Part shown: in pieces, positions 25,984 to 50,223 of the stretch
Numbering within the stretch: position 1 is the first letter of the stretch
Layout of the letters: each line of letters starts with the position of its first letter
Source of the DNA: Metabacillus litoralis
GTDB taxonomy: Bacteria > Bacillota > Bacilli > Bacillales > Bacillaceae
Assembly (NCBI RefSeq): GCF_007994985.1
Contig: NZ_VOQF01000003.1
Span: forward strand, 248,001 to 312,000
DNA: 64,000 nt
Direction of reading: 5' to 3'
Notes under the pieces: model-generated
What the model was told of the DNA's origin: nothing
The model's database searches: none
What the model saw: only the letters and a program-made list of their open reading frames with translations
Position numbers and translations under genes: made by a program

Positions 25984-26022
25984 AAAAAACAAAAGAAAAC
26001 CCGACACGTGGCCGAGTTTTCT
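25984..26022 (-). terminator. Terminator of the yloU-fakA unit
   Basis: AAACAAAAGAAAAC with CCG pairs with CGG and GTTTTCTTTTGTTT, then TTTTTTATT on the minus strand. It now lies 184 bp past the fakA stop, because the repeat element at 26037-26201 is inserted between them. The remainder of the gap (25780-25983) shows no gene, only AT-rich sequence upstream of sdaAB. Confidence 0.85.
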
Positions 26023-26036
26023 TTTGTTTTTTAATT

Positions 26037-26201
26037 AGGCTGTTTTCGTAAACTTTGTTGCTTTTGTAATTCCAAGTAATCAACACTGTATCAAGAATGC
26101 TGACATCTTTTCTTCAAAGATTAGTACCTTATTATGCAATAACAACAATGGTCCAACTGTATAATTAGGGCAATTAGCAACAATCTTTCAGAAAAGAGCC
26201 T
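26037..26201 (+). mobile_element. MITE-like element, copy A (165 bp)
   Basis: Bounded by imperfect terminal inverted repeats AGGCTGTTTTC ... GAAAAGAGCCT. Perfect TTAATT direct repeats flank it (26031-26036 and 26202-26207), consistent with a target-site duplication. It has no coding capacity. A second copy in opposite orientation lies at 50060-50223 with about three-quarters identity by eye. The right flanking repeat overlaps the fakA stop codon (26206-26208). The element was therefore inserted between fakA and its terminator. Confidence 0.8.
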
Positions 26202-26205
26202 TTAA

Positions 26206-27876
26206 TTATTCTACTGAGAATATATAAGAATACAGAGGCTGTTCACCTCTATGAACCTCAACCTCGACATGATCAAATTTCTCTTCAGCAAACGTTACAA
26301 GTTTTTCAACTTCTTCATCATTTGCATCTTCACCTTGAATGATTGTTAAGATCTCGTCATCTTCAGTAATCATTTCAGAGAGAAGTTTTTGAGAAGCTAA
26401 TAATTGATCACGTTCAGTCAAAACAATTTTCCCATTTGAGATTCCCATAAAGTCACCTTTTTCAATATCAAGGCCATCTATATTGGTATCTCTAACAGCA
26501 AATGTAATTTGACCGCTCTTTACACTACTTAAAGCATCAACCATTGTCGACTCCACATCACTTGGCTCAGCAGTTGGATTGAACGAAAGTAGGGCCGCCA
26601 TTCCTTGTGGAACAGTTTTAGAAGGAATAACAATTACATTCTCATCTACTACAGAAGCAGCTTGCTGTGCCGCCATAACGATGTTTGAATTGTTCGGTAA
26701 TATAATAATATTATCAGCATTAACCTCATGTATGGCTTTCACGATATCCTCCGTACTAGGATTCATCGTTTGACCACCTTCAATGACCATGTTTGCGCCA
26801 ATACTTCTAAATAATTCTGCTATTCCACTACCCATTGAAACTGTTACAATGCCAAACTTACTTCTTTCTTTTTTTGTATCCTGCTTTTGTGGAACGGACT
26901 TTTCTACTTTTTCACCAACGATATCTGTATGCTGTTGACGCATATTTTCAATCTTCATGTTAATGAGATTACCATATTTCTGTCCATATGATAGTACATC
27001 ACCTGGGTGTTCAGCATGAATATGTACTTTAGCAAGATCATCATCAGATATAACTAACAAAGAATCTCCAAATTCACTTAAATCATTACGGAAAACTTCT
27101 TCATCAAAAGTTTTTTTACCATCTTCAAAGCGGACCATGAACTCAGTACAATAACCAAACTCGATATCTTCTGTATTCATATGACCTTGAACATTTTTAT
27201 GATGTTCAGCGTTTACAAGATCATCCATTGAAAGTCTATTTGCATTAATTTCTAACTTTTCACCTTTTAAGATAGCCAAGAATCCTTCATAGACAAATAC
27301 TAATCCTTGTCCACCACTGTCCACAACACCAACTTCTTTTAAAACAGGAAGAAGATCAGGTGTACGCTTCAAAGAAGCTTCAGCTTCCTTTAATGTAATT
27401 TCCATCAATTTATCGATTGATGACTCAGTTTCTGAAGCGATTACAGCAGCTCTAGCAGCATCTTTCGCAACTGTTAAAATAGTCCCCTCAACAGGTTTCA
27501 TAACAGCTTTATAAGCAGTATCCACACCAGCCTGTAGTGCATCCGCAAATTCAATAGCTGTAATTGTTGCCTTTGATTCTATAGATTTTGAAAATCCTCT
27601 AAATAATTGAGATAAGATTACTCCAGAATTACCTCGAGCACCCATAAGTAAGCCTTTTGATAACGCTTGACCAACCTTACCAATATGATCTGACTGATGG
27701 TTGCGAACTTCTTTAGCTCCTGATGTTATCGATAAATTCATATTTGTTCCAGTGTCTCCATCAGGAACTGGAAAAACGTTAAGTGCATCGACTAATTTTG
27801 CATTATTCGATAGGTGGTCTGCACCTTGCAAGATCATCTCTGCAAAACGCTTACCATCTAAGGTTGTAATTGACAC
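26206..27876 (-). CDS. fakA: Fatty acid kinase catalytic subunit FakA (YloV)
   Basis: 556 aa. Phosphorylates exogenous fatty acids bound to FakB (DegV family) for phospholipid synthesis. The N-terminal DhaK/DAK2 domain has LNVFPVPDGDTGTNMNLSIT and GARGNSGVILSQLFRGFSK (residues ~36-90); a middle domain contains GVVDSGGQGLVFVYEGFLA. The C-terminal half has the DegV/DAK-related GIVTVSMGSGIAELFRSIGA and IILPNNSNIVMAAQQAASVV. Start GTG at 27876 with AAGGAGG. The stop TAA lies in the duplication flanking the MITE-like element. Confidence 0.95.
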   Translation of the reverse strand: MSITTLDGKRFAEMILQGADHLSNNAKLVDALNVFPVPDGDTGTNMNLSITSGAKEVRNHQSDHIGKVGQALSKGLLMGARGNSGVILSQLFRGFSKSIESKATITAIEFADALQAGVDTAYKAVMKPVEGTILTVAKDAARAAVIASETESSIDKLMEITLKEAEASLKRTPDLLPVLKEVGVVDSGGQGLVFVYEGFLAILKGEKLEINANRLSMDDLVNAEHHKNVQGHMNTEDIEFGYCTEFMVRFEDGKKTFDEEVFRNDLSEFGDSLLVISDDDLAKVHIHAEHPGDVLSYGQKYGNLINMKIENMRQQHTDIVGEKVEKSVPQKQDTKKERSKFGIVTVSMGSGIAELFRSIGANMVIEGGQTMNPSTEDIVKAIHEVNADNIIILPNNSNIVMAAQQAASVVDENVIVIPSKTVPQGMAALLSFNPTAEPSDVESTMVDALSSVKSGQITFAVRDTNIDGLDIEKGDFMGISNGKIVLTERDQLLASQKLLSEMITEDDEILTIIQGEDANDEEVEKLVTFAEEKFDHVEVEVHRGEQPLYSYIFSVE

Positions 27877-50059: not shown

Positions 50060-50223
50060 AGGCTCTTTTTTGAATGATCGTACCTAATTGTCCTATTTAG
50101 TAAAAACATTGTTGTTATAGCAATATAGGTGCAAATTTATGAAGAAAAGATGCCACCTTGCTTTATTATACAATGTTGTTTACTTGAAGTTATTAAAAGC
50201 AACAAAGTTTACGAAACAAGCCT
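50060..50223 (-). mobile_element. MITE-like element, copy B (164 bp)
   Basis: Second copy of the repeat at 26037-26201, inverted relative to it. Read on the minus strand it opens AGGCTTGTTTCGTAAAC and ends AAAAAAGAGCCT. A 22-bp block starting TTTCGTAAACTTTGTTGC is identical in both copies, and the remainder is about three-quarters identical with small indels. No clear target duplication remains here. It occupies most of the 49999-50356 gap between the GNAT and EamA genes; a 10-bp inverted repeat (GGATTTTATA/TATAAAATCC) follows near 50235-50270. Confidence 0.75.

Follow-up and report, generated by a model that had tools for sequence, protein, structure and literature searches.

A 163-bp insertion at the fakA stop codon of Metabacillus litoralis: a probable IS1595-family miniature element with a conserved central motif

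What kind of element has inserted exactly at the stop codon of fakA in Metabacillus litoralis, and what moved it there? The locus lies in a 64,000-nucleotide stretch of DNA (the window) that was analyzed together with the rest of its genome (G000) and with related genomes. A sequence-only reading had described a MITE-like insertion at this position, which direct reading of the sequence bears out. With a probability of about 0.92, we regard the element as a non-autonomous MITE of the IS1595 family that would be moved in trans by a clade-A transposase. The features of the locus are as follows.

About 25985..26031, minus strand: fakA terminator-like hairpin, on the far side of the element from the gene
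26030..26037, no strand: left target duplication, TTTAATTA
26038..26200, plus strand (TL to TR): probable IS1595-type MITE, 163 bp (direct reading, profile and flanks)
26038..26061, plus strand: left end TL, GGCTGTTTTCGTAAACTTTGTTGC
26100..26115, plus strand: central conserved motif, CTGACATCTTTTCTTC in the window copy, consensus GTGGCATCTTTTCTTC
26177..26200, minus strand: right end TR, GGCTCTTTTCTGAAAGATTGTTGC (minus-strand reading)
26201..26208, no strand: right target duplication, TTTAATTA, with the fakA stop codon within it
26206..27876, minus strand: fakA (name as given in the sequence-only reading), stop codon 26206-26208
50061..50222, minus strand: second, diverged copy with the motif intact and the duplication decayed to 6 of 8 bases

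The insertion at fakA and its empty site

The element proper begins with GGCT and finishes with AGCC, and fakA reads into its TR end. The element was first outlined as 165 bp (26037..26201) with inverted ends; the inverted ends stand, but the element proper spans 163 bp, from 26038 to 26200. Likewise, the TTAATT repeats described at its borders are present at 26031-26036 and 26202-26207, but the duplication extends over 8 bp instead of 6, and its two copies match perfectly. The overlap of the right repeat with the fakA stop codon is complete, as the whole codon falls within that duplication. In the fakA-side copy of the 8-mer the codon is retained, in agreement with the proposal that the duplication restored it. 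The hairpin stands on the far side of the element from fakA, and the claimed separation of the gene from its terminator holds. At 163 bp, with inverted ends TL and TR and without an open reading frame of 60 aa, the element has the length, ends and lack of coding capacity of a MITE. A profile search (E <= 1e-3) finds 2 copies only in the window; the second had been placed at 50060-50223, within one base of its position at either end. The sole Rfam match in the window is a ribosomal protein L19 leader RNA (RF00556; 7907-7947, minus strand).

fakA is present in all 21 genomes of the genus, our own included. In M. litoralis SaN21-6 (G003), whose fakA is 87% identical, the element is absent and the stop codon adjoins the corresponding terminator. 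This is the empty site expected of a MITE insertion, for which the sequence-only reading had proposed to look, and it holds none of the unrelated sequence that would have spoken against insertion. M. crassostreae DSM 24486 (G011; fakA 98% identical) carries a remnant of ~45 bp with both ends and an identical duplication, its interior deleted. Because the remnant occurs in G011 and the empty site in G003, the insertion probably predates the split between G000 and G011 and postdates the split from G003; exact loss of the element in G003 is the alternative. In a different species of the genus (G018, locus L109), an element with ends of this kind has inserted independently between the fakA stop codon and the terminator, flanked by the duplication TATATTAA. 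Inspection by eye reveals no element between the stop codon and the hairpin in the remaining 17 relatives. G002 has a remnant of one end directly after the fakA terminator.

Copies, target duplications and stop codons

The genome-wide search that had been suggested as a check returns at least 78 near-complete copies. In a whole-element search of our genome, 40 of 229 first-look candidates were scored, and all 40 places match the whole element with 74-100% identity; two extra rows are short opposite-strand matches at places already counted. A profile built from 26 copies gives 88 matches, 78 of them near-complete, in the fetched loci of this genome and the window; because the loci were fetched around known copies, these counts are lower bounds. 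The element has no plasmid match (E 1e-5). In one locus (L171, 1932-2292), some 190 bp of other sequence split a copy just past its motif.

The flanks of the 62 copies with complete ends were compared at lengths from 3 to 12, and length 8 alone stands out. Flank identity at this length is 0.87, as compared to 0.55 in a control in which flanks of different copies were paired. Perfect 8-bp duplications flank 33 of the 62 copies, versus 0.6% in the control, and in 48 the two flanks agree at 7 or more of the 8 bases. This agreement sets the true duplication length at 8 bp. Among the 48, the target shows a preference for T at position 1 (45 copies) and for A at positions 7 and 8 (42 copies each). 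The element thus occurs as many dispersed copies with target duplications, as does a MITE.

A substantial share of these copies lies at the ends of genes, a gene being taken as an open reading frame of 100 aa or more, chosen by length. Copies that overlap such a frame were excluded (3 of 78 in G000, 4 of 64 in G003 and 0 of 19 in G011), and distances were measured to the ends of the profile match. Of our own 75 copies, 19 are at most 12 bp away from a 3' end (one overlapping it by 13 bp), as compared to none at that distance from a 5' end. For 14 of the 19, the distance is 0-5, so that the duplicated 8-mer spans the stop codon. The share expected near a stop, for which 107 intergenic regions free of the element (24,549 bases) were used, is 5.9% without and 7.5-7.8% with the target preference; the binomial tail of 19/75 against 8% is 5e-6. 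In M. litoralis G003, 13 of 60 copies lie within 12 bp of a stop codon and 3 equally close to a 5' end, and M. crassostreae has 5 of 19 and 1, respectively, with the reservation that insertions may be common by descent across the three genomes, which are then not fully independent. The fakA insertion is not an isolated case, as many other copies share its position at a stop codon. The most likely cause of the excess is a choice of AT-rich targets together with the loss of deleterious insertions; because surviving insertions alone are visible and counted, targeting and selection are indistinguishable.

The same excess could mean that the element is kept at gene ends as RNA, acting in 3' stabilization, processing or termination, in which case the fakA copy would not be neutral. 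We consider this unlikely. It is consistent with the position near stop codons in three genomes and with the folding of the window copy, both strands of which fold better than shuffled sequences (z of -3.7 and -3.5). There is also precedent in other host groups, compared here by description only: QMITE2 of Coxiella and ERIC of Enterobacteriaceae share the location at 3' ends of genes, the Coxiella MITE being found mainly in 3' untranslated regions and ERIC having effects at 3' ends, according to the accessible part of PMC10969869. However, the alignment of 26 copies gives no shared fold (consensus energy of -0.22 kcal/mol, 0 compensatory pairs), although single copies fold well, and a conserved structured RNA was rejected on this ground. 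The element contains no T-run terminator, and no Rfam family covers it, the one match being far below threshold. A strand preference in our genome, where TR points towards the gene in 15/19 copies at stops, is missing in M. litoralis (6/13; 3/5 in M. crassostreae) and was dropped. Moreover, the fakA copy of M. crassostreae has lost its interior.

Spread by segmental duplication, or by recombination that carries the flanks along, is very improbable. Some copies do occur in close series, such as three at 169-bp spacing in G342 (G342:C1:1269935-1270287); three neighbors also lie together at G059:C4:275862-276339. However, the shared flanks that the sequence-only reading had named as the mark of this process were not found: flanks and duplicated 8-mers vary from copy to copy, and for the window copy the empty site in G003 and the target duplication contradict it.

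Kinship to IS1595 elements

The element is matched in 33 of 60 genomes, our own included, many of them only across about 29 bp of the left end. The IS1595 transposase domain PF12762 occurs in 20 of the 60, and 30 transposase loci were fetched for inspection of their ends. Eight IS1595 elements (L060, L061, L065, L071, L073, L080, L081 and L084) share this end type and have 7 or 8 of 8 bases duplicated; in L077 the ends are also of this type and 6 of 8 bases are duplicated, and L063, L066 and L074 each have one clear end of the type. A second type, GGCTCTGTTAAAG or close to it, is found in L069, L076, L078, L082 and L089 and, over a longer stretch, in L064/L290. The other loci of the 30 have no convincing end pair, weak pairs in L079, L086 and L087 being disregarded. 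The end type tracks the transposase clade, as judged from BLASTP neighbors. The left end of the window element is identical at 26 of 28 positions to an end of L060, L061 and L081; the right end (GGCTCTTTTCTGAAA..) is less similar to the ends of autonomous elements, with 17-23 of 28 positions identical in the eight clade-A elements. NCBIfam and Pfam both place the proteins of L060, L061 and L068 in IS1595, with NF033547 and PF12762 assigned to L060 and L061. A transposase with matching ends, proposed earlier as something to look for, is thus found in relatives, and the common ends together with the 8-bp duplication are those of an IS1595-derived element.

IS1595 elements are described as having inverted repeats of 25 bp and direct repeats of 8 bp, with targets that are AT-rich (PMC5704250, accessible part). 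The family, including MTnSag1 (tISSag10) and tISCpe8, resembles the element in end type, 8-bp duplication and AT-rich target. The element differs in its 163-bp length, in having no transposase or gene, in one end that has diverged from autonomous ends, and in a central motif that, with 3 mismatches allowed, is missing from 14 of 15 transposase-bearing elements. Family members in relatives also carry passenger genes, namely, a phosphoesterase in L060 and an unnamed 143-aa protein in L061. A 1.1-kb element with IS1595-type ends (L046, 1502-2606, in G057) carries a nucleotidyltransferase gene (PF06042) and, by eye, a transposase remnant. Miniature elements with IS1595-type ends (L037, L039, L040, L044, L045, L049, L050 and, on the minus strand, L198 1793-1975) enclose a GC-rich hairpin repeat, which is matched in 49 of the 60 genomes searched. 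The L198 example measures 183 bp, has ends that resemble the second type and the duplication TATGCAAA at its borders, and is nested within a copy of the window element.

The 75-contig assembly of our genome has no transposase of the matching clade. Its only PF12762 protein, L068, is N-terminally truncated and shares 94% identity with L064, the element of which carries the other end type; near L068 there is one recognizable end only, of that second type. A cognate transposase in the same genome is not required for membership among MITEs. Because our genome is without a transposase of this clade, we infer movement in trans, or by a parent element that was lost or not assembled. In the proposed mechanism, a DDE transposase of the clade with ends like GGCTGTTTTCGTAAA..TTTGTTGC would recognize both ends of the element in trans and make a staggered cut in an AT-rich 8-bp target, and repair would duplicate the cut 8-mer. 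At fakA, the target 8-mer would have spanned the stop codon, the fakA-side copy keeping the stop and the element coming to lie between stop codon and terminator.

The ISL3 family also produces 8-bp duplications. Descent from ISL3, to which the end sequence and duplication bear some likeness, is scarcely credible and was rejected, as our genome has no PF01610 match, no ISL3 transposase with matching ends was found, and the elements with matching ends encode IS1595 transposases far under the ISL3 cutoff (20.1 bits for L060 versus 180).

The central motif

The element type itself, an IS1595-related MITE, is known; the puzzle is the conserved central motif, 14-16 bp in length with conservation above that of the ends. 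In 26 own copies, 14 columns (GGCATCTTTTCTTC) are 98.9% identical, as compared to 94.6 and 93.8% for the ends and 77.5% for the rest. These copies were selected by whole-element match and constitute alignment A1, the 30 best copies without L009, L011, L012 and L023. With all 30, the values are 98.1% for the motif, 94.4 and 93.3% for the ends and 77.0% for the rest, the 14-mer being exact in 23. None of 20,000 column shuffles reached the conservation of the motif with either 26 or 30 copies. The fakA copy in the window departs from the motif at one position.

Of 60 genomes, 7 contain the exact 15-mer, with 72 matches in our own, 115 in G003, 28 in G011, 35 in G020, 49 in G059, 2 in G014 and 1 in G026, the last lying outside any element by eye. 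A reversed control 15-mer occurs 0 times in these seven genomes and once each in three others. Among 397 genomes drawn from the order, 16 have the 15-mer: our own (72), G059 (49), G102 (46), G342 (35), G162 (18) and 11 with a single match each, of which that in G097 is this element and the other ten, by eye, are not. The 18 copies in G162 (L336, L340 and L343), from another family, lie inside a different GC-rich repeat. Eleven copies from G000, G014, G020, G059, G102, G097 and G342, mostly picked by exact motif, align with the motif equally placed and the same kinds of ends, their interiors being mostly different apart from the motif; in this way it recurs at the same place in elements from two other families of the order. 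Exact-15-mer counts select for the motif, and the whole-element sets from our genome and G059 are the fairer tests. In the G059 set, the values are 0.912 for the motif, 0.905 for the left end, 0.867 for the right end and 0.826 for the rest, the motif being exact in 13 of 31 copies, which supports its conservation more weakly. Among the 15 transposase-bearing IS1595 elements, the exception noted above, L089, has one 3-mismatch match; the motif is absent from 13 of 13 other miniature elements at 4 mismatches.

Tentatively, we suggest that GTGGCATCTTTTCTTC may be a third functional site to which the transposase or a protein of the host binds, and that selection may maintain it across families as the remainder of the interior drifts. 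Save for one inserted base, the motif is similar to the right end, of which it is perhaps an internal copy, GGC-TCTTTTCT with one base added. A 163-bp element from another family (L036, 1366-1528, in G045) has, by eye, GTGCTCTTTTCTC near the place of the motif, closer still to the right end. Use of the motif as a transposon end itself was rejected, since partial profile matches start at model positions 1, 6, 2, 8, 83 or 95 and never at the motif, and a coding use was dropped after inspection by eye.

High-copy MITE-like intergenic repeats are also known from a related genus, and the likeness to bcr1-bcr3 of the Bacillus cereus group, often located in untranslated regions (PMC3446304, accessible part), is one of description only. 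The element is undescribed in the freely accessible literature searched, including the accessible parts of PMC10969869, PMC2267715, PMC3446304 and PMC5704250. These data add an abundant Bacillales repeat, undescribed in the literature reached, that is tied to a transposase family, and a counted case of miniature elements on stop codons. They also reveal conservation of an internal motif, which is directly testable and for which the usual view of a MITE, two ends and a free interior, offers no explanation. If the motif is a third site, it would help explain how a gene-less element multiplies on a transposase made elsewhere.
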